Source of the DNA: Phyllobacterium zundukense
Lineage (GTDB): Bacteria; Pseudomonadota; Alphaproteobacteria; Rhizobiales; Rhizobiaceae
Reading direction: 5' to 3'
Assembly: GCF_025452195.1 (NCBI RefSeq)
Contig: NZ_CP104973.1
Coordinates: forward strand, 2,897,001-2,961,000
DNA: 64,000 bases
The position numbers and the translations under genes were made by a program. Every line of letters begins with the position of its first letter. Position 1 is the stretch's first letter. Below are positions 8,619 to 41,407 of the stretch, one piece after another. The notes below the pieces were generated by a model. The model did no database searches and was not told where the DNA came from. It saw only the letters and a list, made by a program, of their open reading frames with translations.

Positions 8619-8756
8619 GTTGATATTCACGCCATGACGGTCTGCAAACGGCACTTTTCTGTGCTTCCGGTGCTCACGTACTTCAAGTACGCTCCGCTCG
8701 CCGCAAGTGCGGCCCCAAAACCACCGTTTTGCCTTGTCATGATCGCGAATCTCAAC
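8619..8756. repeat. Palindromic element, family 1, copy 1
   Basis: 138-bp imperfect palindrome. The ends GTTGATATTC and GAATCTCAAC pair, followed by CATGAC/GTCATG. The centre carries the family core TTTCTGTGCTTCCGGTGCTC then ACGTACTT, mirrored by AAGTACGC. Copies 2-4 are at 24176, 28327 and 41266. It begins 6 bp after the cold-shock gene stop and ends 17 bp before the DUF192 start. Confidence 0.75.
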
Positions 8757-8773
8757 GCACTCTGGAGCAATTG

Positions 8774-9262
8774 ATGTATCGCCTGAAATCTGTTCTCGCC
8801 GTCGTTGTTTTCCTGCTGTTTTCAGCGATCCCTGTTCTGGCGCTCGATCAGACGCCGCCTATGCATCTTCCCATCGACCACACGGCGCTGACGATCAATA
8901 GTGCCAAGGGCGACATTCCGTTCCAGGTAGAAATTGCCGACACCGACGAAGAGCGCGAGCGCGGCCTGATGTTCCGCACCGATTTGAAAGACAACAGCGC
9001 CATGCTGTTTGTTTTCGACGACACCCGTCTTGTCACCATGTGGATGGAGAACACGCCCTCCGCGCTCGACATGCTCTTTCTGGACGATAATGGCCGTATT
9101 TCCGCTGTTCGCGAAAATGCGGTGCCATTTTCCCGCTCAATCATTTCGTCTGGTGGTCCGGTGCGTTTCGTTGTCGAGGTCAAGGCCGGCACCGCGAAGC
9201 GTCTCGGCTTGACAACTGGCGACAAGGTGCGGCATCCCGCTATCGAGGCGATTGCGCACTAA
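8774..9262 (+). CDS. DUF192 family secreted protein
   Basis: 162-aa protein of unknown biochemical role. Signal peptide MYRLKSVLAVVVFLLFSA with cleavage after about residue 22, then one DUF192 domain: QVEIADTDEERERGLMFR, MLFVFDD, MWMENTPSALDMLFLD, and FVVEVKAGTAKRLGL. ATG 8774 is chosen over an upstream start at 8729, which lies inside the palindromic element and lacks a signal peptide; GGAG precedes it. It is 11 bp upstream of an alpha/beta hydrolase gene, so the two are probably cotranscribed. Confidence 0.85.
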   Translation: MYRLKSVLAVVVFLLFSAIPVLALDQTPPMHLPIDHTALTINSAKGDIPFQVEIADTDEERERGLMFRTDLKDNSAMLFVFDDTRLVTMWMENTPSALDMLFLDDNGRISAVRENAVPFSRSIISSGGPVRFVVEVKAGTAKRLGLTTGDKVRHPAIEAIAH

Positions 9263-9273
9263 CGGACCTGACA

Positions 9274-10029
9274 ATGCAGTTTTTCCACAATGACGGACTG
9301 AAGCTTGCTTATCTGGACGAGGGCGAGGGCGAGCCGATCCTGCTCATCCATGGCTTTGCTTCATCCTCCTTCTACAATTGGGTTCAACCCGGCTGGATGC
9401 AAACGCTGACGTCCGCCGGATACCGCGCCATCGCCATTGACAATCGTGGTCATGGCCAATCGGACAAGCCGCACGACAAGGCGGTCTATACGCCGACGCT
9501 CATGGCGGGCGACGCCGCCGCGCTGCTGGATCACCTTGGCATTCCGACGGCGCATGTCATGGGTTACTCCATGGGTGCGCGCATCAGTGCGTTCCTGGCG
9601 CTCGAACATCCTGCTCGCGTTCATGATCTTGTTTTTGGCGGTCTTGGCATTGGCATGGTCGAAGGTGCAGGAGACTGGTCGCCAATCGCCGAAGCGCTTA
9701 TGTCCACCGATCCGGAGGCGATTACACATCCGCGCGGAAAAATGTTCCGGATGTTTGCCGACAAGACCAAGAGTGACAAAATCGCGTTGGCGGCCTGCGT
9801 TATCACCTCCAAGGAAGAAATCAGCGCAGAAAACATGGCCCGGATAACCCAGCCAACTCTCGTCGCTGTCGGCAGCAAAGACGACATCGGCGGAAACCCG
9901 CATGATCTTGCGGCATTGATGCCGCATGGTGAGGCGATCGATATCCCTGGCCGGGACCATATGCTCGCGGTCGGCGACAAAGTGTTCAAGCAGGCCGTTC
10001 TGGATTTCCTCAAACGCCACAGCATCTAA
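9274..10029 (+). CDS. Alpha/beta-fold hydrolase
   Basis: 251-aa hydrolase with a complete triad: Ser99 in GYSMGA, Asp203 in GSKDDI and His229 in GRDHML; the HGF oxyanion loop is at residues 26-28. No signal peptide. It resembles esterase/peroxidase-type hydrolases but no substrate can be named. It follows the DUF192 gene by 11 bp. Confidence 0.85.
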   Translation: MQFFHNDGLKLAYLDEGEGEPILLIHGFASSSFYNWVQPGWMQTLTSAGYRAIAIDNRGHGQSDKPHDKAVYTPTLMAGDAAALLDHLGIPTAHVMGYSMGARISAFLALEHPARVHDLVFGGLGIGMVEGAGDWSPIAEALMSTDPEAITHPRGKMFRMFADKTKSDKIALAACVITSKEEISAENMARITQPTLVAVGSKDDIGGNPHDLAALMPHGEAIDIPGRDHMLAVGDKVFKQAVLDFLKRHSI

Positions 10030-10240
10030 CGAAGCGCGTGCTTCCGGACGTTCATTGCTTGCGGGACAAGGCCGCATAAGCTAAGGCGATCTTGAAATAA
10101 CAGGGTCTGACATCAGCCAAATCAATCGCAGGTTCAAAATTTCTTGCGCAATCGATCTGGAAATCAGCGTGTCAAGCAACCAATTTTGCCTTATGCTCGT
10201 TGTTTGAGAAATATTATTGGCCGAATGCCTGGAGTAGGAA

Positions 10241-11065
10241 ATGTCCGCAAGCAGTCCGATAAAGATGACCGGATCGGTCAAGCAGATGGACCCGATCTGG
10301 CTCGCAATCCGCGCCGAAGCCGAGGAGGCTGTCCGCAGCGAACCGCTTTTGGCGACGTTCCTTTATACGACAATTCTCAACCATCAATCGCTGGAAGAAG
10401 CGGTCATTCATCGCATTTCGCAACGGCTCGATCACCCGGATGTGGAATCGGAATTGCTACGCCAGACCTTTACGGCGATGGTTGAGGCAACGCCGTCCTG
10501 GTCACAGATCCTGCGCGTCGATATCCAGGCCGTTTATGATCGTGACCCGGCTTGCGACCGGTTCATGGAACCCGTGCTGTATTTCAAGGGTTTCCAGGCA
10601 ATCCAGACGCATCGGCTTGCCCATTGGCTATGGAAGGAAGGGCGGAGAGATTTTGCGCTCTACCTGCAAAGCCGTTCCTCCTCGGTTTTCCAGACCGATA
10701 TCCACCCGCAGGTTCCCATGGGACAGGGAGTGTTCTTCGACCACGCCACCGGTATTGTCGTCGGCATGACCGCTGTCATCGAAGACAATGTCTCGATCCT
10801 TCAGGGTGTCACGCTCGGCGGTACGGGCAAGGAAACCGGCGACCGGCATCCCAAGATACGTCATGGCGTTCTCATCGGCGCCGGCGCCAATATTCTCGGT
10901 AACATCGAGATTGGCCATTGCTCCAAGGTTGCCTCAGGCTCCGTCGTGCTAAAACCCGTTCCGCACAATGTCACTGTTGCCGGCGTTCCTGCTCGTATTG
11001 TGGGTGAAACAGGCTGTGCCGAACCCTCGCGCGCCATGGACCAGCTGATCACAAATTTTGACTGA
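10241..11065 (+). CDS. cysE: Serine O-acetyltransferase
   Basis: Acetylates L-serine with acetyl-CoA to O-acetylserine, the carbon precursor of cysteine. 274 aa: N-terminal alpha-helical SATase domain (about residues 15-130) and a left-handed parallel beta-helix of hexapeptide repeats (about 150-250). The catalytic His/Asp context FFDHATGIVVG and the acetyl-CoA region GGTGKETGDRHPKI are visible. ATG 10241 has GGAGTAGG upstream. The DUF3126 gene follows, a pairing I recall from other rhizobia. Confidence 0.94.
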   Translation: MSASSPIKMTGSVKQMDPIWLAIRAEAEEAVRSEPLLATFLYTTILNHQSLEEAVIHRISQRLDHPDVESELLRQTFTAMVEATPSWSQILRVDIQAVYDRDPACDRFMEPVLYFKGFQAIQTHRLAHWLWKEGRRDFALYLQSRSSSVFQTDIHPQVPMGQGVFFDHATGIVVGMTAVIEDNVSILQGVTLGGTGKETGDRHPKIRHGVLIGAGANILGNIEIGHCSKVASGSVVLKPVPHNVTVAGVPARIVGETGCAEPSRAMDQLITNFD

Positions 11066-11173
11066 ATCGCGGCTCTACGGGTCTCGGCGCTCCAAGGCGA
11101 TCGCAATCAACCCTTTACAGGGGCGACTCTCGCATGCCAAAAGCGCCTGAATTTCATATGACAGGAGACCTCC

Positions 11174-11380
11174 GTGAAACCCGAAGAACTGAAGAAACTC
11201 GACAGCTATTTCAAGCGGACATTCAGAAATACGGAACTCACTGTAAAGGCTCGTCCACGCAAGGATGATTCTGCCGAACTCTATCTCGGCGACGAATTTC
11301 TTGGTTTGATCTACAAGGATGAGGACGAGGGTGAACTCTCCTACAATTTCTCGATGGCCATCCTCGAGATGGATCTCTGA
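11174..11380 (+). CDS. DUF3126 family protein
   Basis: 68-aa conserved small acidic protein of unknown function (starts MKPEELKKLDSYFKRTF; contains LYLGDEFLGLIYKDEDEGE). GTG start at 11174 with GGAGACC upstream. It lies 108 bp after cysE, and the linkage may reflect cotranscription, but no role is known to me. Confidence 0.85.
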   Translation: MKPEELKKLDSYFKRTFRNTELTVKARPRKDDSAELYLGDEFLGLIYKDEDEGELSYNFSMAILEMDL

Positions 11381-11411
11381 GTCTCTTGATCGAGTGACGC
11401 TGTTGGAGGCG

Positions 11412-12137
11412 TCACTTCTGCCCTTTGAGATGGGCTTCGGCAAATGTTCGTATTTGCTGATCCAGCTTTTGCCAGTCTCCAAGTATTTCCCTTGGAAAGC
11501 GATAGGTTAGCTGCAAATCCTCACCAAGAAATATATCCCGCTGGCACGATGCAAGGTTGGTCTTCGAGGTTTGCTCGTCAAGACATCGGGCAACGAATGG
11601 CAACCGGCCTGCCTGTTCCGCCGAAACCATCAGTTCCTCATTTACAAAGCCACTGTCGGCTCGTAACTTCTGTGTCGTCAAACCAGCCGGACCCTTCGAG
11701 CCGGGACCCTCGGTCAGGGTGCTATAGATCGGACCGTATCGCCCCGACATATCCTGCGAGGTGGCGCGCGGCTCGAAGGTCAGGAATAGGAGCCGCTTTT
11801 CCGGCCCCGCACTATTGAAATCCGACAGGAACGCCGGCTGGTAACCCAGCATGTCCGGCCAATGCAGGTATAGGTCGACGCGTTCGGCATCGCCGTTTCG
11901 GCGCTGCCTTTCGAAGCGGATCGTGTTTGCCGGAACCTCAAGCACATTGTTGCCAATGACGATCTCCCGAGGCTTTGTGTCTTCCGTATGGCCGCCAAGC
12001 GAGATCGTGTGGCCGAGGTAATGGCCGGCGATGGTCAAACACAATGATACGAGCGCCAGCGTTGCGATGGCATAAAAGACGCGTCGCAGCAGCGCGCTGC
12101 CAAAAATTGGCTCTATTCTCTGCGCTCGATACTGCAT
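11412..12137 (-). CDS. Conserved hypothetical membrane-anchored protein
   Basis: 241 aa from ATG 12137. The N-terminal helix LLRRVFYAIATLALVSLCLTIAGHYLG anchors it in the inner membrane, with the remainder probably periplasmic. It contains ten-odd beta-rich stretches and two cysteines (VARCLDEQ, LASCQRD) that could form a disulfide. I do not recognise a domain; it looks like an uncharacterised protein conserved in Rhizobiales. GTG at 12164 is an alternative start. Divergent from the carbonic-anhydrase-like gene. Confidence 0.7.
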   Translation of the reverse strand: MQYRAQRIEPIFGSALLRRVFYAIATLALVSLCLTIAGHYLGHTISLGGHTEDTKPREIVIGNNVLEVPANTIRFERQRRNGDAERVDLYLHWPDMLGYQPAFLSDFNSAGPEKRLLFLTFEPRATSQDMSGRYGPIYSTLTEGPGSKGPAGLTTQKLRADSGFVNEELMVSAEQAGRLPFVARCLDEQTSKTNLASCQRDIFLGEDLQLTYRFPREILGDWQKLDQQIRTFAEAHLKGQK

Positions 12138-12271
12138 GACTTTCGGGCCCCGCCTTGAGTGCACTCAACTTAACGCGACATGTGCTGATTTATGGTTAAT
12201 CGAAAGTGAAGGTGGCCTCGCCAAGCCTTCCGCCCTTCGCTAAGCTTGCCGAGCGAATCCAGGGAGAAGCC

Positions 12272-12799
12272 ATGCCGATTTTCACGCTTGACGGACATTC
12301 ACCGGAATTTGAGCATCGGGCGTCCAATTGGATAGCGCCTGACGCTACCATTGTCGGCAAGGTATTCCTGGGTGAGAACGCCAATATCTGGTTCGGTGTG
12401 GTCCTGCGCGGCGACAACGAGTTGATCCGCATCGGTCGCGACACCAATGTTCAGGAACATACCGCCATGCACACTGATATGGGCTATCCGCTGACTGTTG
12501 GCGAGGGCTGCACGATTGGACATCGCGCCATGCTGCATGGTTGTACCATCGGCGATAATTCGCTGGTCGGCATTGGCGCTATCGTCCTGAATGGCGCAAG
12601 GATTGGCAAGAATTCCTTTGTCGGCGCGGGCGCACTCGTTACCGAGCGCAAAGAGTTTCCCGACAACTCACTCATTGTCGGTTCGCCGGCGAGGGTCATA
12701 CGGACGTTAGACGAGGCGGCGATTGAGGGCCTCAGGCTTTCGGCAGCGCATTATGTCGAGAATGGCCGACGCTTCATGCGAGGCCTGGAAATAGACTGA
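12272..12799 (+). CDS. Gamma-carbonic anhydrase family protein
   Basis: 175-aa left-handed beta-helix protein. Hexapeptide repeats run through residues 25-140, with the three zinc histidines expected for the family at H67 (AMHTD), H84 (TIGHRAM) and H89 (LHG). Homologues (YrdA/PaaY/CaiE group) bind metal; some are carbonic anhydrases or thioesterases, others inactive, so activity is not assured. ATG 12272 is preceded by GGGAGAA. An intrinsic terminator follows immediately. Confidence 0.88.
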
Positions 12800-12803
12800 C
12801 AGC

Positions 12804-12832
12804 AAAAAGCCGCCTCCAGAGCCGGCTTTTTT
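12804..12832. terminator. Bidirectional intrinsic terminator
   Basis: AAAAAGCCG (12804-12812) pairs with CGGCTTTTT (12823-12831), with T-runs on both strands. It lies between convergent genes (carbonic-anhydrase-like on plus and the cysteine-protease gene on minus), so it can serve both. Confidence 0.85.
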
Positions 12833-12844
12833 GTGTCGGAGTTC

Positions 12845-13441
12845 CTATTTGATACTGCCGACCAGGAGCTGGCGCTCGTCATTGATCGAGACCCACGCGC
12901 CGGTATTGTTCGCGGCCTGACGCTTCAGATAGTCGTAGCTAGTTTCGTTCCACGGCTTTATGCGCAGTTCAAGGTTGTCGAGAACGTAATCGCCGCGATC
13001 CGTGCGAACGGTGAGAACCGCATGGCCTTCGCCGTTCATCTGGCGAACGACAGTGATCAGGAGATCACTGATTGGCACACCGCTCTCGTTCAGCAGCTTC
13101 CGCTTCAGAAGGACGTAGTCTTCGCAATCGCCGACGCTCGTCGGATATGACCAGACTTCCGCCTTGCCCCAGATATCCATATCTGTCGCGGGCTGGATCT
13201 GTGCATTCACCTGGCTGTTGATCTGAACCATGAGATTCCAGATCTTCGGCGTTAAATGAGCAGGGCTGTCATCGCTGCTCTTTATATTGCACTCGTTTCT
13301 GTAGGCCTGACAAAATTCGTAATGTCCGATCGGCTGAGACGTACGTCCGCCTGTCTTCATGAATGCCATGCTCGAATCGGCTTGTGCGGTCATGCACATC
13401 AAAAAGAAGGCCGCTCCAAGCAAGATTGTACGTTTTATCAT
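12845..13441 (-). CDS. Transglutaminase-like cysteine peptidase (BTLCP family)
   Basis: 198-aa periplasmic papain-fold protease candidate. Signal peptide MIKRTILLGAAFFLMCMTAQA, then the BTLCP domain with catalytic C106 (VGDCEDYVLLKR), H140 (GEGHAVLTV) and D155 (YVLDNL). The family includes LapG-type proteases that cut surface adhesins; no adhesin or LapD homologue is seen here, so the substrate is unknown. ATG 13441 is preferred because it begins the signal peptide. Confidence 0.88.
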   Translation of the reverse strand: MIKRTILLGAAFFLMCMTAQADSSMAFMKTGGRTSQPIGHYEFCQAYRNECNIKSSDDSPAHLTPKIWNLMVQINSQVNAQIQPATDMDIWGKAEVWSYPTSVGDCEDYVLLKRKLLNESGVPISDLLITVVRQMNGEGHAVLTVRTDRGDYVLDNLELRIKPWNETSYDYLKRQAANNTGAWVSINDERQLLVGSIK

Positions 13442-13811
13442 TTCCCGTCGTCTCCCCGGTTGAGGCGACAATGGCAGAGAGAGTTTGACCGAGCGGAAAT
13501 GTCGATGAGTAAATATGAATCAAGTTAGTAGCAAAAAATAAACTAATTAGACTATAACTTAGTATTAAGATATATTACTGTTTTATTTAAATGTGATATA
13601 TATTGTATTTATAGAAATATAATAGGATTAAGCATTCATTGATGCGAATATTTAGTGATTTATAATGGCTTAATGCCTCATCGACCATTGGCGATGTTTC
13701 GCCAGCTTTCGGTGGCAATTTCGTCAAAAAAATATCCGGGATGTAAAAAATCACAACGAAATGCAGTCGATTGCATCGGGCTGGACGAATTTATCAAGAG
13801 AATAGAGGGAT
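13442..13811. other. AT-rich intergenic region
   Basis: About 370 bp between two minus-strand genes. The part from roughly 13500 to 13660 is strikingly A/T-dense compared with everything around it (runs such as TTTATTTAAATGTGATATAT). It probably contains the promoter of the protease gene and may be a nucleoid-protein binding site or recently acquired DNA. No gene, tRNA or clear repeat was recognised. Confidence 0.5.
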
Positions 13812-19073: not shown

Positions 19074-19347
19074 CGCGATCTCCCGTAGCCGCCCTCAAAG
19101 GAGCGACGAGTTAAACGGCAATACACGATAGTCGCTCCATGGGAACGGACGGTGTATTGAAGGCAAGCTGGAAGACGTTTCCAGCCCCGACTAACACAAT
19201 ATAACGCGTCGCGAAAATTTAATACATGCGACTTTGTGCTAGTGCGCTTCAATACTATATAGAGATTGAAATCGGGATTCATAGGGTCAAAACGATGCAC
19301 AATGGCGCGTTCGCGTTAAACACTGTGTCGAATAACGGGCATTCATC

Positions 19348-23189: not shown

Positions 23190-24362
23190 TCAATCGAGCG
23201 GCTCTTCGCCCTCGGCCGGTTGGTTCGTCGTTGCTGGTGAGCTTGCAGCTTCGGATGCGATCACTTCAACATCCTGATTGCGGCCTGCAACGACCTTGTA
23301 ATCGCGCTGGTAGATGCGGTCCTTGTTCTTGGCGATGATGACATACTCGCCTTCCGCCAAGACGATCGAAGCAAAGGCGCCGACGCTTTCCCGCACGATA
23401 TCGCCGGATGTGGTCAGGACGGACCAGGCAGTATCGGCCAGCGCCTCGCCACCAGCCTCGCGCACGAGCTTCATCGTCAGCAATGCGGCGCGGTGTTCCA
23501 CGTTGGCTTCGGTGATCTTGCCGGCCTCGACACGGATATCCGAGCGGATCACAGCGTTCGCGGTGCCGTAGTTGGAGACGATCTGGTAGGTGCCGGTATT
23601 GAGTCGCACCACGCTATCGGGTTTTACGTCGGGGATGATCAGCGCACGTTCACCGCTCTGGTCAGCATGATCTTCATAGATGGAAAACCGCAGCTGATCG
23701 GGCGGTATGCGCCCGCCGCCTGAAAGGGTCGCGTTGAGTTTCACTCCGCCCGCATCGAGGATCATCGTTTCCGTGCGCTTGGCGCGCGTCATGGTGATGC
23801 GCTTCGTCGCGCCTGCACGCCCGAAAGCTACGTGCACCAGATAGCTGCCGGGAGCCAGGTTGAACGAGGTTGTTCCGCCCTTGGCGGTCGCCAGCAATGC
23901 GAGCTTGCCGTCGCCGCTCGGCTCCGGCGAGAATACACGCCAAACGAGGCCACGCGGGATTGCCTGGCCCTTGTCGGAAAGCTTGGCTGACAACACGAGT
24001 TCCGGTTCGTTGGCAAACGGGTTGTTCTCGGGAGCCTTCGGATTGGCGTACCCTTTAAGATTGGGAATATTGGGAATATCGAGGGCCGGGACATCGGGCA
24101 AGGCAGGTGCAAGCGCCTGCGCCGATGCGCCGGAGATGCTGGCAAACCCCATGGTCACAAGCAGCAGCGCACATTTAAGAGCCCGAACGAAAATTCGCCG
24201 CGAAGGGCTGCAAATGGCGTTTTTCTGCGCTCCGATGCTCACGTACCAAATGTACGCCGTGCGCCGGTGCTCAAAAACCACCATTTTCGCCGCTTCCTGA
24301 CGAATTTTCGTTTGGGCTCTTAGGGACTTGCCGCCCGTTGAAATAAACTGGAATACACCCAT
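23190..24362 (-). CDS. Secreted protein of unknown function with repeat inserted in N-terminal coding region
   Basis: Conserved exported protein with no recognised domain. The mature part is beta-rich: repeated segments such as APGSYLVHVAFG, NTGTYQIVSNYG and AEGEYVIIAKNK resemble carboxypeptidase-regulatory or Ig-like modules. A signal-peptide core (CALLLVTMGFASISGASAQA) is visible, but a 147-bp palindromic element lies directly upstream of it, in frame, adding 49 codons. If the element is removed, ATG 24362 gives a continuous normal signal peptide. Alternative starts are 24446, 24284 (GGAAG upstream) and 24152. The start, and whether export still works, are uncertain. Confidence 0.65.
   Translation of the reverse strand: MGVFQFISTGGKSLRAQTKIRQEAAKMVVFEHRRTAYIWYVSIGAQKNAICSPSRRIFVRALKCALLLVTMGFASISGASAQALAPALPDVPALDIPNIPNLKGYANPKAPENNPFANEPELVLSAKLSDKGQAIPRGLVWRVFSPEPSGDGKLALLATAKGGTTSFNLAPGSYLVHVAFGRAGATKRITMTRAKRTETMILDAGGVKLNATLSGGGRIPPDQLRFSIYEDHADQSGERALIIPDVKPDSVVRLNTGTYQIVSNYGTANAVIRSDIRVEAGKITEANVEHRAALLTMKLVREAGGEALADTAWSVLTTSGDIVRESVGAFASIVLAEGEYVIIAKNKDRIYQRDYKVVAGRNQDVEVIASEAASSPATTNQPAEGEEPLD
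24176..24322. repeat. Palindromic element, family 1, copy 2
   Basis: 147 bp with 22-bp terminal inverted repeats (24176-24197 and 24301-24322) that differ at one position; outer bases TAAGAGCCC/GGGCTCTTA. The centre holds the family core (TTTCTGCGCTCCGATGCTCA, then CGTAC). It lies inside the reading frame of the secreted protein and has no stop in that frame. TA flanks both ends if AGAGCCC is taken as the terminus. Confidence 0.8.
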
Positions 24363-24496
24363 GAAACGGTTTGATCCGAAGCCGATGGCAATTTCAAGGC
24401 TTTTTCTTAGCGTGCTACCTTTACTTGGGCGGCGAAACCACCACATTGTCCGCGCAAACGAGTATACGACTTAAATCAGGATCGCCGTTTTAAAAC

Positions 24497-27184: not shown

Positions 27185-28327
27185 ATGTCGGTACAGCACT
27201 ATCTGAAAATGATCGATAATGTTTCGGTTGCGCAGCGTTGCCATGCGGCGGCTGCGTTGGCCCATATCTACCTGCATTCCGACCTCGATTTTGACGAACG
27301 TTGTGCCACAGAGACTGTACTGACGCTGCTCCTGGACGATCCTTCGCCAAAAGTGCGGTTGGCGCTGGCCGATGTGTTTTCCACAAGCGCTCACGCACCG
27401 ATCCACATCGTTGCAGGTCTTGCCCGCGATCAGATAGAGATCGCCACCTATATGCTTGCGCGATCCGTCCTTCTCAGCGATGCCGATCTGATCGATTGTG
27501 TTGCTGGCGGAAGTGGCGACGCACAGAAAGTCATAGCGGCGAGGCCGAGGGTATCAATTGCGGTCAGCGCTGCAATCATTGAGATCGGCGAGACCATTGC
27601 TGTGCTGGAACTTCTGGCCAACACCCAGGCGCAGATAGCCGACATCAGCTTTCGCCGCTTGATCGAGCGCCTTGGTCATGTGGCTGAAATTCGTGCGCTC
27701 CTTGTCGACAATGAGCGACTGCCCGCAGATTGCCGCCATGCCTTGGCAATCTGCATTGCTGAGGCGCTGTGCCAGATGGACATTGTCGTGGCATTGATGG
27801 GCGAGCGGCGGGCCAGGCGCGTCACGCAGGAAGCTTGCGTCAAAGCATCGATAAGCCTTGTGGCGGAGACCCGCGTTGAGGAATATCCGGCACTGATCGA
27901 GCACCTGCAGTTGCGCGGTGACCTCACGACTGCATTCGTCATCAGGATCGTTGCATGCGGAAAGATCGATTTCTTCGGTGCGATCCTTGTTATGCTCTCG
28001 GGCTATAGCCTACCGCGGGTGCGAAGCCTTTTGATCGATGGCCGGGCCACGGCACTGTGTGCATTGTTCAGTGCTGCAGGGCTTCCCGCGACCACGCATC
28101 AGCCGCTGCGAGTGGCGCTCAACAGTTGGCACGGCGTTGCCAATGGCAAGCTGGTTATCAATTCCCAGGAAATTGTGCGCAGAATGATCGAGCAGGTCGC
28201 ACCGGCTACCAATGGCACTGTTCCTGCCGCCGCGAATGATGACATGCTATCGCTGCTCAAGAGGATATATCTTGAGGCAATTCGGGAAGATGCGCGCGAT
28301 CATGCAACGGCAATTGCCGCCGCTTAA
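27185..28327 (+). CDS. DUF2336 family protein
   Basis: 380-aa all-helical protein of the DUF2336 group found in alphaproteobacteria. The repeated helical pairs (for example LLDDPSPKVRLALADVF) resemble HEAT-like repeats. No catalytic motif, signal peptide or membrane segment. Some homologues are tied to c-di-GMP or cell-cycle signalling, which cannot be judged here. Its stop codon coincides with the start of palindromic element copy 3. Confidence 0.83.
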   Translation: MSVQHYLKMIDNVSVAQRCHAAAALAHIYLHSDLDFDERCATETVLTLLLDDPSPKVRLALADVFSTSAHAPIHIVAGLARDQIEIATYMLARSVLLSDADLIDCVAGGSGDAQKVIAARPRVSIAVSAAIIEIGETIAVLELLANTQAQIADISFRRLIERLGHVAEIRALLVDNERLPADCRHALAICIAEALCQMDIVVALMGERRARRVTQEACVKASISLVAETRVEEYPALIEHLQLRGDLTTAFVIRIVACGKIDFFGAILVMLSGYSLPRVRSLLIDGRATALCALFSAAGLPATTHQPLRVALNSWHGVANGKLVINSQEIVRRMIEQVAPATNGTVPAAANDDMLSLLKRIYLEAIREDARDHATAIAAA

Positions 28328-28470
28328 GAGCCCATTTTGAAACTCTACTGCGGCGGTCATCTGACGCGGTTTTCTGCGCTTCCGGTGCTCACGTACTTAA
28401 TGTACGCTGTGCTCCGGTTCTCGAAAACCACGCCATCTGGCTCACCGCAGCGACTTTCCAGACGGGCTCT
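28327..28470. repeat. Palindromic element, family 1, copy 3
   Basis: 144-bp imperfect palindrome with outer AGAGCCC (28327-28333) and GGGCTCT (28464-28470), inner CTGCGG/CCGCAG arms and the core TTTCTGCGCTTCCGGTGCTC, ACGTACTTAATGTACGC and a mirrored CTCCGGTTCTC. It begins at the last base of the DUF2336 stop codon. Confidence 0.8.
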
Positions 28471-30003
<1,533 letters not shown>

Positions 30004-34692: not shown

Positions 34693-34756
34693 AAAGCCGT
34701 GCAATGCGCGGCACGCATAGTAAGCTAGTCGAGCGACGCAAGTTGAGGCAGAAGCC

Positions 34757-36832
34757 CTAAATATCCAGTTCCTCAACGAACGCGGCGCGATCCTGGATGA
34801 AGCGGAAGCGCGCGTCGGGGCGGGTGCCCATCAGATCGTCCACGGCAAGCTTGGTTTCGTTGGCCCATTCCTCGTCGATCTGGACACGCAGCAGGGTGCG
34901 CTTCTTGCGGTCCATCGTGGTTTCCTTGAGCTGGTCGGCGCGCATTTCGCCAAGGCCCTTGAACCGGCCGATCTCAACCTTGCCCTTGCCGGTAAACAGC
35001 GTCTTCAGGAGCTCGTCCTTATGGGCATCGTTGCGGGCATAGGCGACCTTGCCGCCCTGCGCGAGACGGTAGAGTGGCGGTACACCAAGGAAGAGGTGGC
35101 CGTTGCGGATCAGCTCGGGCATTTCCTGGTAGAAGAAGGTGATGAGCAGCGATGCGATATGCGCGCCATCGACGTCGGCGTCGGTCATGATGATGATGCG
35201 GTCGTAGCGCAAATCCTCGTCGCGGTATTTCGAGCGGGTGCCGCAACCGAGCGCCAGGATGAGATCGCCGATCTGCTGGTTGGCCGTCATCTTTTCGCGT
35301 CCGGCACTGACCACATTCAAAATCTTGCCGCGCAGCGGCAGCACAGCCTGTGTGGCGCGATCGCGCGCCTGTTTGGCCGAACCGCCAGCGCTGTCGCCCT
35401 CCACGATGAAGAGCTCGGCGCCCAGCGCCCCGGTCTGGCTGCAATCGGCAAGCTTGCCCGGCAGGCGCAGCTTCTTGACGGCGGATTTGCGATTGACCTC
35501 TTTTTCCTGGCGGCGTTTGACGCGCTCTTCAGCCCGGTCCACCACCCAGTCGAGCAACTTCGATGCTTCCTGCGGCGAGGCGGCGAGCCAATGATCGAAT
35601 GGATCGCGAATGACATTTTCAACGATGCGCTGTGCTTCGACCGTCGCCAGCTTGTCCTTGGTCTGGCCAACGAACTCCGGCTCGCGGATGAACACCGAAA
35701 GCATGGCGGCAGCGGAGATCATGACGTCATCGGTGGTGATGATCGAGGCGCGCTTGTTGCCGGTGAGTTCCGCATAGGCCTTGAGGCCGCGGGTGAGCGC
35801 GATGCGCAGCCCCGCTTCATGGGTGCCGCCTTCGCCTGTCGGAATGGTATTGCAATAGGAATTGACGAAACCATCGCCGCCATACCAGGCGACAGCCCAT
35901 TCCATGGCGCCATGGCCGCTGGTTTTCTCCGTCTTTCCTGCAAACATTTCGCGCGTGATCTGAAAATCCTTGCCGAGCGAGGCGCCGAGATAATCCTTGA
36001 GGCCGCCCGGGAAATGGAAGACGGCCTTGTCCGGCGTCGGATCCTTCGGATCGAGCAGCGACGGCGCGCAATTCCACCGGATTTCGACGCCACCGAAGAG
36101 ATAGGCTTTCGAGCGCGCCATCTTGTAAAGCCGCGCGGGGTCGAACTTGGCGCCCTGACCGAAGATCTCGGCATCGGGATGGAAGGTCACACGCGTTCCG
36201 CGCCGGTTCTGCACTTCGCCGACTTCTTCAAGCGGTCCAAGCGCCTTGCCGCGCGAAAAGCGCTGGCGATAAAGGCGGCGGTTGCGCGCGACCTCGACTT
36301 CAACGTGGTCCGAGAGCGCGTTGACGACCGAAACACCGACGCCATGCAGGCCGCCGGAGGTTTCGTAGACTTTGGAGTCGAACTTGCCGCCGGCGTGCAG
36401 CATCGTCATGATGACTTCGAGCGCGGATTTGTCCTTGAATTTCGGATGCGGATCGACCGGCATGCCGCGACCATTGTCCGTGACCGACAGATAGCCGTTT
36501 TCGTCGAGATCGATATCGATGAAATTGGCGTGACCGGCAACGGCCTCGTCCATGGAATTATCGATGACTTCAGCGAACAGATGATGCAGCGCGCGCTCGT
36601 CCGTGCCACCAATATACATGCCCGGACGGCGGCGAACCGGCTCCAGCCCTTCCAGAACCTCGATATCGGCGGCATTGTAATTGCCGCTGGCTTCGGGCGC
36701 GGTGCGCGCGGATTTGACAGGCAGGGCGGGGGCAGGCTTGGCAACTTGATCAGAACGTGCGGGTTCGCTCGCCGCCTGCCGCTCGCGCGCGGTTTTTACG
36801 ATCGCTGAAAAGAGGTCGTTATTGTCATCCAT
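34757..36832 (-). CDS. parE: DNA topoisomerase IV subunit B
   Basis: ATPase subunit of topoisomerase IV, which decatenates daughter chromosomes. 691 aa. GHKL ATPase site (EVIDNSMDEAVAG, DNGRGMPVD, GGLHGVGVSVVNAL), transducer domain, and TOPRIM (VEGDSAGGSAKQARDR, DADVDGAHI). An N-terminal extension of about 50 residues precedes the ATPase domain. It is shorter than typical GyrB and lacks its insert, which favours ParE. Confidence 0.95.
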   Translation of the reverse strand: MDDNNDLFSAIVKTARERQAASEPARSDQVAKPAPALPVKSARTAPEASGNYNAADIEVLEGLEPVRRRPGMYIGGTDERALHHLFAEVIDNSMDEAVAGHANFIDIDLDENGYLSVTDNGRGMPVDPHPKFKDKSALEVIMTMLHAGGKFDSKVYETSGGLHGVGVSVVNALSDHVEVEVARNRRLYRQRFSRGKALGPLEEVGEVQNRRGTRVTFHPDAEIFGQGAKFDPARLYKMARSKAYLFGGVEIRWNCAPSLLDPKDPTPDKAVFHFPGGLKDYLGASLGKDFQITREMFAGKTEKTSGHGAMEWAVAWYGGDGFVNSYCNTIPTGEGGTHEAGLRIALTRGLKAYAELTGNKRASIITTDDVMISAAAMLSVFIREPEFVGQTKDKLATVEAQRIVENVIRDPFDHWLAASPQEASKLLDWVVDRAEERVKRRQEKEVNRKSAVKKLRLPGKLADCSQTGALGAELFIVEGDSAGGSAKQARDRATQAVLPLRGKILNVVSAGREKMTANQQIGDLILALGCGTRSKYRDEDLRYDRIIIMTDADVDGAHIASLLITFFYQEMPELIRNGHLFLGVPPLYRLAQGGKVAYARNDAHKDELLKTLFTGKGKVEIGRFKGLGEMRADQLKETTMDRKKRTLLRVQIDEEWANETKLAVDDLMGTRPDARFRFIQDRAAFVEELDI

Positions 36833-37012
36833 GGTCTTGTTCGGCCAACTTCATAGAGATTCTGAATCACCCTTGATATTTGCACGCTTCATGGCGAAAC
36901 GCGATGGGAGTTCGCTGTCTGTTCCGGTGTTCACCCACAGAACTATACGCCCGAGCGCTTACATTCAAGTGTGGCTGAAAAACTGACGCAAAGCATCGTG
37001 GAGAGTAAAACG
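36833..37012. promoter_or_regulatory. parE upstream region
   Basis: 180 bp between the parE start and the first palindromic element. It should carry the parE promoter on the minus strand. No distinct motif was recognised. Confidence 0.4.
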
Positions 37013-37185
37013 TGGCAAAACCGCCATGTGCGTGGTTCGTCGTTCGACAAGCTCACGATGAGGGAGGTTGAGTGCTGCAAGATTAATCACCAACGTTTGA
37101 GCCATCCCAGCATTCAAGCTCCCCTGCAATCAACCCACCTCCCTCATGGTGAGCTTGTCGAACCACGCACATGGCGGTTTTGCCA
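37013..37185. repeat. Palindromic element, family 2, copy A
   Basis: 173 bp with about 50-bp arms: left TGGCAAAACCGCCATGTGCG then TGGTTCG...ACAAGCTCAC...ATGAGGGAGGT; right is the inverted ACCTCCCTCATGGTGAGCTT...GTTTTGCCA. The left arm carries an extra TCGTTCG. The central part holds AATCACCAACGTTTGAGCCA. Confidence 0.8.
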
Positions 37186-37211
37186 AGCCTACCACCCAGT
37201 AACTATACAAA

Positions 37212-37508
37212 TTATTCTGAGCGCTTTGAGCGATTCCTGGAGAGCTCGGGAAGTCCTTCATAGTTCATGGCAATAAGTGCTTGCTTCTTCACACGCGACC
37301 ATCCTTTGATTTGCCGTTCGCGCGCGATCGCATCCAAAATGCGATCGTAGGTCTCGGTAAAAACAAGTTCAACAGGAAGCCGCGAGCGTGTGTAACCATT
37401 GTAGATCGCCGCGTTGTGCTCCCACACCCGGCCTTCGACTTCCTGCTTCGTGAGTCCTGTGTAATATGAACCATCCGCACAACGAAGAATATAAACGGTT
37501 ACTTCCAT
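37212..37508 (-). CDS. GIY-YIG nuclease family protein (UPF0213)
   Basis: 98-aa single-domain GIY-YIG protein. The motif is present as VYILRCADGSYYTGLT near the start, followed by the conserved arginine region EGRVWEHNAA and a late ARERQIKGWSRVKKQALI. Such stand-alone proteins are of unknown role; some family members nick DNA. The gene sits between copies A and B of palindrome family 2. ATG 37508 follows GAGG. Confidence 0.88.
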   Translation of the reverse strand: MEVTVYILRCADGSYYTGLTKQEVEGRVWEHNAAIYNGYTRSRLPVELVFTETYDRILDAIARERQIKGWSRVKKQALIAMNYEGLPELSRNRSKRSE

Positions 37509-37597
37509 AAGGACCTCGCCCAACCTGCGACACCGTAGAAACGATAGTCAGTTCGGGCAATTCAACCAAAGTTTGAACAACGCAATTGCATCGATTC

Positions 37598-37743
37598 CAT
37601 GTGCGTGGTTCGACAAGCTCACCATGAGGGAGGTAGGGTATTGCAATAACAATCACCAACGTTTGGCTGTCGACAACTGTTGAGCAATCCCAGCGTTTCA
37701 AACTCCCCCGCAATCAACACACCTCCCTCATGGTGAGCTTGTC
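37598..37743. repeat. Palindromic element, family 2, copy B (truncated)
   Basis: Left arm CATGTGCGTGGTTCGACAAG then CTCACCATGAGGGAGGT; right arm ACCTCCCTCATGGTGAGCTT ends abruptly after GTC, where the sequence departs from the other copies. Outer bases of the arms are missing. Confidence 0.75.
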
Positions 37744-37775
37744 TTTGAGGTTCATTGTGGACGTGGAGAGTACCT

Positions 37776-37983
37776 TGGCAAAACCGCCATGTGCGTGGTT
37801 CGACAAGCTCACCATGAGGGAGGTAGAGTATTGCAACGTTAATCACCAACGTTTGAGCCATCCCAGTTAATCACCAACGTTGGAGCCATCCCAGTTAATC
37901 ACCAACGTTTGAGCCATCCCAGCTTCAAGCTCCCCTGCAATCAACCCACCTCCCTCATGGTGAGCTTGTCGAACCATGGCGGG
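37776..37983. repeat. Palindromic element, family 2, copy C
   Basis: Complete left arm (TGGCAAAACCGCC...GAGGGAGGT). The right arm has lost the CGCACA stretch (CGAACCATGGCGGGA). The centre is expanded by a 28-bp tandem repeat, making it longer than copy A. It ends about 50 bp before the EamA start. Confidence 0.78.
37838..37921. repeat. 28-bp tandem repeat, three units
   Basis: Units at 37838-37865, 37866-37893 and 37894-37921, each starting GTTAATCACCAACGTT and ending GAGCCATCCCA; the second differs by one base. Contiguous, no spacers, so not CRISPR. A single similar unit sits in the centre of copy A. Confidence 0.85.
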
Positions 37984-38034
37984 AGCGATATTCCAGCAAG
38001 CCACGTCGCCGCGGCGTCCAGAGGAATGATGAGC

Positions 38035-38958
38035 ATGGAAAATACAACCGCACAGCAGGTGCAGGGTGTGTCGATGATGGCGGCGGCCATGTTCTTCCTG
38101 CCCGTGATGGACGCCATTGCCAAATGGCTTTCGACGGTGGACAGCGTCTCGCCGGCAACCGTAACGCTCTTCCGTTTTGGATTTCAGGCCATGCTTGCCG
38201 CGATGATCATCATTGCCATGACCGGGGTCAAATCCTTAAGGCCCGTCAAGCTATGGGGTAATCTGTTTCGCGGCGTTCTCATGGGTGTCGGAGGGCTCTG
38301 TTTCTATGCGGCGATCAAATACATGCCGTTGGCGGACGCCATAGCCGTGTTCTTCGTTGAACCGTTGATGCTGACGACCCTTTCGGCAATCCTGCTGAAG
38401 GAACATGTCGGCTGGCGCAGGTGGATGGCCGTCGCCATCGGGTTCATCGGCACACTGATCGTTATTCAGCCCAGCTGGGAACTCTTCGGCTGGGTTTCGC
38501 TTTTGCCTCTGGGCACGGCAGCATCCTTTGCCTTCTATCTTATCCTGAACCGACGGTATGGCACCGCCGACACAACGCTTGTCATGCAGTTATATGCGGG
38601 AGTAGGCGGTACGCTGACGACTCTCGTCGCGCTGTTCTTCGGCGCAGCCTTCGAGGTCAGCGATATGACATTCGGACTTCCCGCCAATGCCCTGTCGTGG
38701 TCTTTGCTCTTCGCAATGGGCGTCATTGCGACAACCGGACACCAGCTGATCACCAACGCCTCGCGCCTTGCCCCCGCCTCGCTGCTGGCGCCGTTTCAAT
38801 ATCTCGAAATCGTCATGGCAGTGCTCATCGGGCTCTTTGTCTTCAACGAATTCCCTACCGCATCGAAGTGGCTGGGAATCGCCATCATCGTCGCTTCCGG
38901 CGCCTATCTGATCTGGCGAGAGGGCAAACGCAAAGCGAGCGAGCCTGCGTATAACTAG
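38035..38958 (+). CDS. EamA/DMT family transporter
   Basis: 307-aa inner-membrane protein with two EamA repeats and about ten predicted helices. Conserved tracts include FYAAIKYMPLADAIAVFFVEP and LIQPSWELFG-type loops. Drug/metabolite exporters of this family move amino acids, nucleosides or other metabolites; the substrate is not predictable. ATG 38035 is chosen from several close ATGs because GAGG lies 10 bp upstream. Confidence 0.88.
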   Translation: MENTTAQQVQGVSMMAAAMFFLPVMDAIAKWLSTVDSVSPATVTLFRFGFQAMLAAMIIIAMTGVKSLRPVKLWGNLFRGVLMGVGGLCFYAAIKYMPLADAIAVFFVEPLMLTTLSAILLKEHVGWRRWMAVAIGFIGTLIVIQPSWELFGWVSLLPLGTAASFAFYLILNRRYGTADTTLVMQLYAGVGGTLTTLVALFFGAAFEVSDMTFGLPANALSWSLLFAMGVIATTGHQLITNASRLAPASLLAPFQYLEIVMAVLIGLFVFNEFPTASKWLGIAIIVASGAYLIWREGKRKASEPAYN

Positions 38959-39254
38959 GAACTACAGATTTTTAACAGTTGAGCGAAACGAGCTTTGGCA
39001 ATAGAAACAAAGGCATATTTCGGGAGGTGAGAAAACTGTTTTCGATCGGGCAACACCATTGTGCGTGGTTCGACGGGGCTCACCATGAGGGTAGTGGGTT
39101 GATTGCAGGGAGCCAGGAGCTGCAACGCTGGTGATTGTCATTGCAATCCACGTGTCCCCCTCATGGTGAGCCCCGTCGAACCACGCACAATGCATTCTGC
39201 CAGCTCGTTCACTCATCCCCTCAATCTATTTGACCAGGGGCAGGAGATCATCGC
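38959..39254. other. Intergenic region with palindromic copy D
   Basis: 296 bp between the transporter and pccA, occupied by palindromic copy D (39058-39191) and the pccA ribosome-binding site (GGGGCAGGAG). No gene recognised. Confidence 0.5.
39058..39191. repeat. Palindromic element, family 2, copy D
   Basis: Perfect 34-bp inverted repeats (39058-39091 and 39158-39191) around a 66-bp centre. Relative to copies A-C both arms carry the same change: GACAAGCTCAC becomes GACGGGGCTCAC on the left, and GTGAGCTTGTC becomes GTGAGCCCCGTC on the right, so pairing is kept. Confidence 0.85.
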
Positions 39255-41267
39255 GTGTTCAAAAAGATACTGATTGCCAACCGTGGCGAGATTGCCTGCC
39301 GGGTCATTAAAACTGCGCGCAGGATGGGGATTGCCACGGTTGCGGTTTATTCCGATGCGGATCGCGATGCTGTGCATGTGGAGATGGCCGACGAGGCAGT
39401 GCATATCGGGCCGGCTGCTGCTGCCGAAAGCTATCTGGTGGCGGACAAGATCATCGCCGCATGCAAGGAGACCGGCGCGGAAGCCGTTCACCCCGGCTAC
39501 GGGTTTCTCTCCGAGCGGGCTTCCTTTTGCGAGGCGCTGGAAGAGCAGGGCATCATCTTCGTCGGGCCGAAGCCCAAGGCGATCATCGCCATGGGCGACA
39601 AGATCGAATCGAAAAAATTCGCCAACGCGGCCAAGGTGAGCACTGTTCCGGGCTTTCTCGACGTCATCACCGACCCGGCCCATGCGGAGCGGATCGCCGG
39701 CGAGATCGGCTACCCGGTGATGATCAAGGCTTCAGCAGGCGGCGGCGGCAAGGGCATGCGCATCGCCTGGAACAAATCGGAAGTGCGCGACGGTTTCGAG
39801 CGTGCGACCTCCGAAGCGCGCAATTCCTTCGGTGATGAGCGGGTTTTCATCGAGAAGTTCATCGTCGACCCGCGCCATATCGAAATTCAGGTGCTGGCCG
39901 ATGCTTTCGGCAACTCCATCTATCTGGGCGAGCGCGAATGTTCGGTACAGCGACGCAACCAGAAGGTGGTGGAGGAAGCGCCGTCACCCTTTCTGGACGA
40001 GGCGACGCGCAAGGCCATGGGCGAGCAGGCGGTGGCGCTGGCCAAGGCGGTGGACTACCAGAGTGCCGGAACGGTGGAGTTCATCGTCGACAAGGACCGC
40101 AATTTCTATTTCCTCGAGATGAATACGCGGCTGCAGGTGGAACACCCGGTGACCGAACTGATCACCGGGATCGATCTGGTCGAGCAGATGATCCGCATTG
40201 CCGCTGGCGAAAAGCTGGCGATCAAGCAGGCCGATGTGAAGCTCAATGGCTGGGCTGTCGAAAGCCGGCTCTACGCGGAAGACCCGTATCGCAACTTCCT
40301 GCCGTCGATCGGACGGCTGACGCGCTATCGCCCGCCGGCGGAGGGGCCGGTGGGCAAGGCGATCATCCGCAACGACACGGGCGTGACCGAGGGCTCGGAA
40401 ATCTCGATGTTCTACGACCCGATGGTCGCCAAGCTCTGCACCTGGGCACCGACGAGGCTCGAAGCCATCGATGCGATGGCGGACGCGCTGGATACGTTCG
40501 TCGTCGACGGTATCGCGCACAACATCCCGTTTCTCGCCGCGCTGATGCAGCACACGCGCTGGCGCGAGGGCAGGCTTTCGACCGCCTTCATCGCCGAGGA
40601 ATTTCCCGATGGGTTCAAGCCGATTTCGCCGTCACCGGACGATCTGGATATATTGGCGGCGGTCGCGCTGGCAGTCGAACTGGTGCGCAAGGAGCGGCTG
40701 GATCGATTGTCGGATCGTTTGCGGCCGCATACGGGCAAGATGCGCACCGAATGGGAAGTGCGGATCAAGGACGATTATGTGCCGATCACGATTGCAAACT
40801 GTGTGGCCAAACCGCCTGTGAAGATCGAGCTTTCAATTCGTGGCGGCGATGTCGTTACCGTTCGCAGCGACTGGCAGCCCGGCGACGCCGTATGGAGCGG
40901 CTATATCGACAAGCGGGCGGTGAAGGCGCAACTGCGCCCGGTGCTCAATGGCATGCGCATCGACTGGAGGGGCATGTCGATCATCGCCCACGCCATGCAG
41001 AAGCACGTGGCGGCGCTGGAAAAGCTGATGCCGGTGAAGATACCGCCGGATACGTCGAAGCTGTTGCTATGCCCGATGCCGGGGCTGATCGTGTCGATCA
41101 ATGTGACAGAGGGGCAGGAGGTCAAGGCGGGGGAAACGCTTGCCATCGTCGAGGCGATGAAGATGGAGAATGTCTTGCGTGCCGACCGCGATCTGACAGT
41201 GTCGGCGATCAACGCCAAGCAGGGCGACAGCCTGGCTGTGGACGCGGTGATCATGGAGTTCATCTAG
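39255..41267 (+). CDS. pccA: Propionyl-CoA carboxylase alpha subunit
   Basis: Biotin carboxylase/biotin carrier subunit; carboxylates its own biotin using ATP and bicarbonate. 670 aa: biotin carboxylase N domain (LIANRGEIACRV), ATP-grasp with KASAGGGGKGMR, biotin carboxylase C domain, a BT linker, and the C-terminal biotinyl domain with lysine in EAMKMEN. GTG start with CAGGAG upstream. Partner pccB is at 5662-7194. The TAG stop overlaps palindromic element copy 4. Confidence 0.95.
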   Translation: MFKKILIANRGEIACRVIKTARRMGIATVAVYSDADRDAVHVEMADEAVHIGPAAAAESYLVADKIIAACKETGAEAVHPGYGFLSERASFCEALEEQGIIFVGPKPKAIIAMGDKIESKKFANAAKVSTVPGFLDVITDPAHAERIAGEIGYPVMIKASAGGGGKGMRIAWNKSEVRDGFERATSEARNSFGDERVFIEKFIVDPRHIEIQVLADAFGNSIYLGERECSVQRRNQKVVEEAPSPFLDEATRKAMGEQAVALAKAVDYQSAGTVEFIVDKDRNFYFLEMNTRLQVEHPVTELITGIDLVEQMIRIAAGEKLAIKQADVKLNGWAVESRLYAEDPYRNFLPSIGRLTRYRPPAEGPVGKAIIRNDTGVTEGSEISMFYDPMVAKLCTWAPTRLEAIDAMADALDTFVVDGIAHNIPFLAALMQHTRWREGRLSTAFIAEEFPDGFKPISPSPDDLDILAAVALAVELVRKERLDRLSDRLRPHTGKMRTEWEVRIKDDYVPITIANCVAKPPVKIELSIRGGDVVTVRSDWQPGDAVWSGYIDKRAVKAQLRPVLNGMRIDWRGMSIIAHAMQKHVAALEKLMPVKIPPDTSKLLLCPMPGLIVSINVTEGQEVKAGETLAIVEAMKMENVLRADRDLTVSAINAKQGDSLAVDAVIMEFI

Positions 41268-41407
41268 AGACCTTTGCCAATCCACCCCGACGGTCATCTG
41301 ATGCGACTTTCTGCGCTTCCGGTGCTCACGGACCAATACGTCCGCTGCCCGCCGGTTCTCGAAAATCACACCAGCTGACCGTCGGGCTGAATTCTCAAAA
41401 GGTCTCT
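41266..41407. repeat. Palindromic element, family 1, copy 4
   Basis: 142 bp with AGAGACCTTT (41266-41275) pairing with AAAGGTCTCT (41398-41407), inner CCCGACGGTCA/TGACCGTCGGG arms and the core TTTCTGCGCTTCCGGTGCTC. The spacing at the centre is changed (ACGGACCAATACGTCCGC), but the palindrome is preserved. It starts inside the pccA stop codon. Confidence 0.8.

Follow-up and report, generated by a model that had tools for sequence, protein, structure and literature searches.

Mobile palindromic elements of Phyllobacterium with one polarity relative to replication and a preference for stop codons

How small palindromic repeats such as ERIC, Bru-RS, RIME, and CIR move is, to our knowledge, an unsettled matter. 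As far as the available text of one account goes, the ERIC/IRU sequence of Enterobacteria is a dispersed palindrome with TA at its ends, and the CIR of Caulobacter and Brucella is an element of ~110 bp in which a linker connects two separate stem-loops, a loop carries GANTC, and no terminal inverted repeat is present (PMC2229807). Single-strand transposition has been proposed for REP/REPIN elements in the accessible portion of another article (PMC3116915). QMITE2 of Coxiella is presented, in the available parts of its report, as a stem element of 150–190 bp that is mainly 3′ untranslated and intergenic, with C-terminal overlaps of 1–10 bp at named genes (PMC5896051).

The family described here came from a 64-kb stretch of Phyllobacterium DNA (the window, 64,000 nt in all). 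Its members have the terminal inverted repeats, small size, and lack of genes expected of MITEs; they typically measure 143–150 nt, and a few short variants measure 115–123 nt. ERIC/IRU is likewise a dispersed palindrome of similar size, but its arms are unrelated. A covariance model (R1) built from 43 copies was run on a single ERIC locus of E. coli, 1244 bases long. Its top match was the ERIC center in the register of our conserved hairpin tip (UCACUUACUUAUGUAAGCUCC; E 0.056), a weak alignment of 8.2 bits that covers only the 21-nt tip rather than the whole element. Bru-RS1 and Bru-RS2 of Brucella are also palindromic, intergenic, and alphaproteobacterial, but their published sizes are 103–106 and 118 bp; typical copies here fall outside the range of 103–118 bp, beside the few variants of 115–123 bp. 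CIR shares with the present family its alphaproteobacterial and intergenic occurrence, conservation between species, and, in part of the copies, TA ends. GANTC is usual in our subfamily B (21 of 29 copies) and is found in 9 of 22, 8 of 20, and 1 of 16 copies of subfamilies A, C, and D. However, CIR is set apart by its description, which gives two stem-loops and a linker rather than a single long hairpin with terminal inverted repeats. REP/REPIN elements are palindromic and dispersed as well but consist, with RAYT, of two short REPs instead of one 145-nt hairpin. Moreover, Y1 transposase genes were found in none of 13 genomes of the genus, whereas 5 of 14 control genomes were positive, which speaks against a RAYT/IS200-type Y1 transposase as the driver. 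QMITE2 resembles the family as a stem element at gene 3′ ends and differs, according to the available text, in its long direct repeats of 7–11 nt (PMC5896051). RIME, the mosaic repeats of rhizobial chromosomes, are similarly intergenic. Literature searches for an established name for such palindromes led to no more than the names CIR, Bru-RS, and RIME.

The preliminary description had reported four palindromic copies in the window, and all are present as judged by their folds, a 26-nt core pattern, and R1. They are one member each of four subfamilies. Folding of the copies at 8619, 24176, 28327, and 41266 gave z-scores of −2.7, −7.8, −6.4, and −8.8, respectively, relative to 200 shuffles. The core pattern has three matches in the window with up to three mismatches versus none expected by chance, and R1 recovers all four copies on the + strand, plus antisense echoes of three. 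The first copy, originally placed at 8619–8756, is real but was delimited too narrowly, and extends over about 8612–8763 (+ strand; R1 match 8607–8768, 87.3 bits). It has the GGGTCTGTTGATATTC-type arms of subfamily B, an additional small hairpin in its 3′ half, and a conserved hairpin tip, TGCTCACGTAC N5 GTACGC, at 8671–8692 (+). The near-perfect palindrome of subfamily D (24176–24322, +; R1 match 24173–24325, 117.5 bits; tip by pattern match at 24236–24257, +) is a ~144-nt insert, in antisense, inside the ORF at 23190–24446 (−). Subfamily A, with AGAGCCCGTTTTG-type arms, is represented at 28327–28470 (+; R1 match 28323–28475, 144.7 bits; tip by pattern match at 28386–28407, +), and this site carries another arm subtype in the congeners G002, G008, and G010. 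Subfamily C, with AGAGACCTTTG-type arms, is represented at 41266–41407 (+; R1 match 41260–41412, 103.6 bits); its tip at 41323–41345 (+) matches the pattern with one mismatch. The core, previously held to be common to the copies, is conserved at the tip but is not identical in all four: the copy at 8619 has TGTGC, that at 24176 has one T fewer and GATGC, and that at 41266 has GGAC...GTCC for GTAC...GTAC, a compensated change. Three copies do lie at or just after a stop codon, as had been noted; these are TAG at 8611–8613, TAA at 28325–28327, and TAG at 41265–41267. The only Rfam match in the window at gathering score is a THF-II riboswitch, and the palindromes match no Rfam family.

Genome-wide collection with the covariance model, a check suggested at the outset, yielded further copies, for a total of 101 loci of the ~145-bp palindrome in the Phyllobacterium genome (G000), 97 of them on contig C5 (after merging of the antisense echoes among 133 rows at E ≤ 0.01). 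Clustering of the 90 full-length C5 copies gave subfamilies B (29), A (22), C (20), and D (16) and three singletons; seven short copies (90–123 nt) were omitted here and from the within-subfamily change and strand-stability counts (n = 90). In 62 of the 97 copies, an arm near the ends has at least eight of nine bases paired; in some of these copies, the arm begins slightly inside the termini. The proposal of a dispersed family with covarying arms was thus borne out, in that 44 of 50 stem pairs have changed on both sides among 109 aligned rows. Three of these rows are antisense duplicates, kept in this covariation count and dropped from the cross-genus stop-codon, GANTC and TA-flank, strand-fold, G-T/A-C, and concordance counts. 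The covariation score is 0.347 versus 0.137 for shuffled and at most 0.108 for slid versions, although derivation of the structure from the same alignment favors it over the slid versions. Since each of the four outer-arm types characterizes a subfamily of its own, the joint change of the arms largely reflects how the subfamilies differ from one another. MAFFT alignments analyzed with RNAalifold alone showed weak covariation; among 14 subfamily A copies, none of 29 pairs had changed on both sides.

The element is mobile, given that orthologous empty sites exist and that matches in congeners range from 0 to 141 rows. The 12 congeners gave 141, 124, 114, 62, 31, 21, 8, 6, 4, 1, 0, and 0 rows, antisense echoes included. 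Both empty and filled orthologous sites were found for window copy 24176 (absent from G002 and G008 but present in G010) and for the C5 copies at 3706126, 3715047, and 3698837; one further polymorphic site is filled in G002, G006, and G010 and empty in G000 and G008. Several empty sites are compatible with a target duplication of 0–3 nt, these duplications being weak and the junctions often untidy. Identical flanking 3-mers occur in 8 of 34 GAG/CTC-anchored copies (mean of 2.9 expected, p 0.005). Of 89 cross-genus copies, 23 are flanked by TA at either end, an uncontrolled count. Because the elements have TNA flanks and GAG ends, a signature of the IS1031 group, a DUF4096-type IS5 transposase was considered as the driver. 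This candidate was rejected: no such gene was found in G000, G002, or G008, though 4 of the 13 genus genomes carry one, high-copy G010 among them. A search of 1.26 Mb of C5 for an autonomous relative with the same ends gave five short partial matches outside elements, the transposase families covered being Y1 and DUF4096. Likewise, 1.26 Mb of C5 held no abundance of half-elements and no large population of short-core copies.

In three genera, the elements are oriented consistently with respect to replication. Their strand matches the local GC skew for 85 of 97 C5 copies, for 19 of 25 sampled copies from Mesorhizobium AR07 (44 kept in all), and for 14 of 16 sampled copies from Sphingobium SYK-6 (19 kept in all); for the latter two, skew was taken from 20 sampled 20-kb stretches each, and one partial AR07 match was dropped. 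Adjacent copies share a strand in 85 of 96 cases on C5 and in 124 of 147 cases among the copies listed for contigs of 23 other genomes, counting all contigs with at least two listed copies. On the + replichore, where predicted genes are divided 328:236, standard polarity is shown by 25 of the 27 copies that lie at co-oriented stops, by 5 of 5 that lie at opposite ones, and by 18 of 20 in other contexts. Gene orientation was rejected as the cause of the strand bias, since polarity is independent of gene context. Twelve of the 97 copies run contrary to local skew, and blocks of copies at 24–240 kb and 3.40–3.63 Mb have weak or contrary skew. These findings suggest an influence of replication on the sites at which such repeats insert or persist, and the polarity could help to trace inversions that alphaproteobacterial chromosomes underwent in the past.

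The association with stop codons is far stronger than four copies could reveal. On C5, 54 of 97 copies have their start at the stop codon of a gene in the same orientation, compared with 1.8% of random intergenic points and 4.0% of YTNAG sites, and 14 of 97 end at the stop of an opposite gene. In other genera, the copies starting at stop codons number 40 of 59 and 9 of 16, counted among the 75 for which 700 flanking bases were available at either end. Note that genes are predictions of a home-made codon-usage script rather than annotation. The target motif alone is insufficient for this ~30-fold preference for co-oriented stops, and a function could lie behind it. The strength of the bias and the replication polarity both go beyond the preliminary description.

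One such function would be that of a 3′-UTR RNA element, in which the stem after the stop stabilizes or ends the mRNA and is retained by selection. The stop-codon counts and the strong folds speak for it. Stop-adjacent copies also seemed, by eye in a small sample, more widely common to G000, G002, G008, and G010, and among the papers that a search for the tip sequence returned, the one on bacteria concerns Thalassospira small RNAs, with reads that match the tip according to the available part of that report (PMC6413936). Nevertheless, we consider this explanation, which includes the role in 3′-end stability or termination advanced earlier, unlikely. RNA in the gene-sense direction is more stable than its complement in no more than 2 of 90 copies, and the opposite strand folds better in 104 of 106 with RNA and DNA parameters alike. 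One-sided changes within subfamilies favor A-C (235) over G-U (174). The cross-genus evidence is mixed, with G-T at 441 versus A-C at 224 when the structure is fitted with G-U as a pair, and 228 versus 386 when it is fitted with Watson–Crick pairs only. The strand, within-subfamily, and Watson–Crick-only counts do not support selection for RNA structure in the gene-sense direction, the one contrary ratio coming from the G-U-permitting fit. An intrinsic terminator was rejected because a T-run follows the stem in just 5 of 90 copies in the sense direction (6 of 90 in antisense). Furthermore, orientation tracks replication away from stops, both neighboring genes are on the opposite strand for 15 of 97 copies, and R1 matches nothing in 2 of 12 congeners.

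Orientation might instead arise through survival only, with unbiased insertion followed by loss, via hairpin cleavage or slippage, of copies whose stronger hairpin lies on the lagging-strand template. The stronger-folding strand is indeed found on the leading-strand template. However, standard polarity is already seen in every one of a small set of polymorphic copies (those at 24176, 3706126, 3715047, and 3698837, plus a copy in relatives), and survival leaves the stop-codon preference unexplained, so we regard this account as doubtful. A polar chromosome-architecture motif of the KOPS/AIMS type, its orientation under selection, would fit the consistent polarity in three genera. It is highly improbable for a 145-bp palindrome, as opposed to a short oligomer, whose copies are clustered, uneven, and number from 0 to about 100 among congeners.

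Mobility, a shared polarity across three genera, and the bias toward stop codons of co-oriented genes are observations; polarity and stop-codon landing in several genera make the question of movement testable and point to DNA that is single-stranded at forks or at the ends of genes. Most likely, the family consists of non-autonomous elements of the ERIC/MITE kind that would depend on such DNA for their insertion or survival. Each subfamily would spread as an entire palindrome around the highly conserved tip TGCTCACGTAC N5 GTACGCTGCGCT, which is probably the recognition target of a trans-acting enzyme and offers a handle for pulling that enzyme down. Insertion would be into short targets with T/A (roughly YTNAG or TA), in many cases precisely at a stop codon, which the first bases of the element would keep or recreate. 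Polarity may reflect the single-stranded state of the lagging-strand template at the fork and of the coding strand at the 3′ ends of genes; where genes are co-directional, these two are the same physical strand. The strand effect could act at insertion, survival, or both, the weaker-folding strand sitting on the lagging-strand template. Arms would covary because each lineage was founded by a complete palindrome, long-term mismatch being selected against or corrected, and an RNA function need not be assumed. We give this explanation as a whole, a mobile, gene-free ~145-bp palindrome family with tip recognition and fork and gene-end polarity, an even chance of being right.

Mesorhizobium, Brucella/Ochrobactrum, Devosia, Sphingomonadales, and other taxa contain relatives that have the same hairpin tip with covarying arms of their own. 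The tip is kept, compensated changes included, in distant hosts. Weaker look-alikes extend beyond Alphaproteobacteria. Matches were obtained in 27 of 289 genomes of the class and 34 of 299 of the phylum, G000 being counted in both; 10 candidates were scored per genome, making copy numbers lower bounds. Because R1 itself selects for the tip, out-of-class matches share it partly by construction, and the independent evidence is their palindromic arms, length, and copy number, for which 17 stretches from 12 of 19 such genomes were inspected. Tentatively, there may be a very widespread class of palindromes, extending to non-alphaproteobacterial Pseudomonadota and possibly to ERIC, united only by a ~27-nt tip (roughly TGCTCAC[AG]TAC N5 GTA[CT]GCT[GC]CGCT). 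Its members might be moved as single-stranded DNA by a host or phage enzyme into whichever strand lies exposed at the ends of genes, coding or lagging-template, and both polarity and stop targeting would follow from this. Among the matches listed, 24 of the 25 genomes sampled from the genus to which Brucella tritici belongs carry the family.

Palindromes are present at the four places in the window given in the preliminary description, which are named here by their start positions (8619, 24176, 28327 and 41266), and each has a more stable fold than shuffled versions of its sequence (z = -2.7, -7.8, -6.4 and -8.8). By using a covariance model of the family (R1) built from 43 diverse copies, we collected copies throughout the 6.41-Mb, five-contig genome of P. 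zundukense, and the 133 rows recovered (E <= 0.01) correspond to 101 loci. Contig C5, which includes the window at 2897001-2961000, carries 97 of these loci, with three more on C1 and one on C3. Contigs C1-C4 represent about 40% of the genome, yet hold only 4 of the 101 loci. Within the window, R1 reported all four copies, three of which also gave antisense echoes. The exact pattern of the conserved central hairpin tip has 24 matches in the whole genome, every one on C5, and the reversed pattern has 0. Clustering of 90 full-length C5 copies yielded four arm subfamilies (B, 29; A, 22; C, 20; D, 16) and three singletons, and each subfamily has one member in the window (8619, B; 24176, D; 28327, A; 41266, C). 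Short variants of 115-123 nt reside at C5:1806609, 1988717, 2682999, 2696537, 2781344 and 2827800, and several look as if they arose by deletion between the pair of TGCGCTtCCGGTGCTC direct repeats on either side of the tip. The sole gathering-level Rfam match in the window is a THF-II riboswitch (RF02977) at 19080-19118 on the minus strand (57.2 bits).

The family is real and mobile. R1 rows, which include antisense echoes, number 141, 124, 114, 62, 31, 21, 8, 6, 4, 1, 0 and 0 in twelve congeners and 129 in P. zundukense by the same search. Filled and empty sites were scored in homologous regions of these congeners. The 24176 site is filled in P. zundukense and congener G010 and empty in G002 and G008; C5:3706126 is filled in P. 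zundukense, G006, G008 and G010 and empty in G002; C5:3715047 is filled in P. zundukense and empty in G002, G008 and G010; and C5:3698837 is filled in P. zundukense, G002 and G010 and empty in G008. One further site is filled in G002, G006 and G010 and empty in P. zundukense and G008. At the site orthologous to 28327, the element of G002, G008 and G010 has different arms, which points to replacement or repeated insertion at one stop codon. The 24176 palindrome lies inside an ORF (23190-24446, minus strand), which it lengthens by about 144 nt (48 codons, none of them a stop) relative to two congeners, near the N-terminus and ahead of a signal-peptide-like stretch. Junctions are compatible with insertion plus a 0-3 nt duplication, and some are untidy. 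Identical 3-mers flank 8 of 34 GAG...CTC-anchored copies versus 2.9 expected (p 0.005), and all eight are TNA.

The earlier impression that copies start at stop codons extends well beyond the window: 54 of the 97 C5 copies have their start at the stop codon of a co-oriented gene, and 14 have their end at that of an opposite gene, compared with 1.8% and 2.6%, respectively, for random intergenic points. Among free YTNAG sites, 106 of 2621 are at a co-oriented stop. Co-oriented-stop starts recur in other genera (40/59 and 9/16). At several junctions, the gene now ends on a stop codon provided by the element, one or a few codons away from its former end. A similar 3'-end preference is seen for Coxiella QMITE2 (PMC5896051).

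Element strands form long blocks along C5. Against local GC skew, computed from the window and 60 further 20-kb stretches, 85 of 97 copies have the matching strand. The positive-skew stretch (1.1-3.05 Mb) carries 48 of 52 copies in plus orientation, and the remainder of C5 carries 31 of 45 in minus. This polarity holds in the positive-skew stretch for copies at a co-oriented stop (25/27), at an opposite stop (5/5) and at neither (18/20); predicted genes there divide 328 to 236 by orientation. The same polarity is evident in Mesorhizobium AR07 (19 of 25 sampled copies, p 0.015) and Sphingobium SYK-6 (14 of 16, p 0.004), and among the matches listed for 23 other genomes, neighbors on one contig share a strand in 124 of 147 cases. 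Plus-strand blocks at C5:24-240 kb and 3.40-3.63 Mb lie in negative or near-zero skew and are possibly past inversions.

The strand after which element orientation is named is the leading, G-rich one and serves as template for the lagging strand. The gene-sense strand gives the better fold in only 2 of 90 C5 copies, and across genera the other strand folds better in 104 of 106 copies with RNA and DNA parameters; shuffled sequences reproduce about a third of the RNA strand difference. Therefore, the weaker-folding element strand is on the lagging-strand template. In superintegrons, the folded attC strand is mostly on the leading-strand template, an arrangement explained as limiting loss (PMC8946536); the stronger-folding strand of the palindromes is on that template too. 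The preliminary description had also proposed that arm complementarity is kept by selection for a stem or by gene conversion or hairpin replication. Complementarity is indeed kept, with strong covariation across 109 rows, although in a palindrome covariation also arises at the level of DNA. Among changes within the four subfamilies, those on one side of a pair produce 174 G-U and 235 A-C, and of the 291 on both sides, 191 pair. A Watson-Crick-only structure yields 228 G-T versus 386 A-C cells, whereas a structure fitted with G-U allowed yields 441 versus 224, which runs against the DNA-level reading. A Thalassospira 'miRNA' pair (TTCGGTGCTCACGTACTTTTAG / TGCGCTCCGATGCGCGTGAACC; PMC6413936) resembles the tip, and such elements may therefore give rise to small RNA reads from their sense strand.

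The family is a variant of a known repeat type, sharing its design with ERIC and other bacterial MITEs, and its replication polarity is the unexpected feature. At one E. coli ERIC locus, the best R1 match is the ERIC center, in register with the tip (8.2 bits), and this possible kinship is a lead, not proof. CIR, as described, differs in architecture, and Bru-RS is shorter by its published sizes. The portions of the alphaproteobacterial palindrome literature covered mention neither replication polarity nor stop-codon landing; key older papers fall outside this scope, and thus such absence is no proof of novelty. Among 13 genus genomes, searches for Y1 and DUF4096 transposases revealed no mobilizing enzyme: Y1 occurs in 0/13 and DUF4096 in 4/13, with none of the latter in P. 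zundukense, G002 or G008. The mechanism we propose for the family is one that we infer.

The family is widespread in the class. An exact-tip scan of genome contigs gave at least 120 stretches, and the matches listed include Mesorhizobium, Phyllobacterium, Agrobacterium, Brucella tritici, Devosia, Stappia, several Sphingomonadales, one Asticcacaulis MAG and others. R1 rows, again including antisense echoes, number 30 in B. tritici, 46 in P. brassicacearum, 29 and 64 in two Mesorhizobium, 17 in Sphingobium xanthum, 13 in Devosia, 14 in Novosphingobium mangrovi and 2 each in two Agrobacterium. Even draws in which only 10 candidates were scored for each genome gave matches in 27 of 289 genomes of the class and in 34 of 299 of the phylum, with 19 of the latter outside the class (28-48 bits); 24 of 25 genomes drawn from the genus of B. 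tritici carry the family. Distant alphaproteobacterial hosts retain element length and tip, with compensated changes. Seventeen stretches from non-alphaproteobacterial Pseudomonadota (L376-L392) contain palindromes of 130-155 nt whose arms are unrelated. Many of these have TAGGGCCTGTT-like ends, visual inspection often shows TA on their flanks, and in 14 of the 17 it is again the other strand that gives the better fold. Their tips are identical or similar, partly by construction because R1 selects for the tip. Tip-only matches lacking arms (30 nt, about model positions 64-93) comprise several of those in one drawn genome (G178) and all listed in another (G373).
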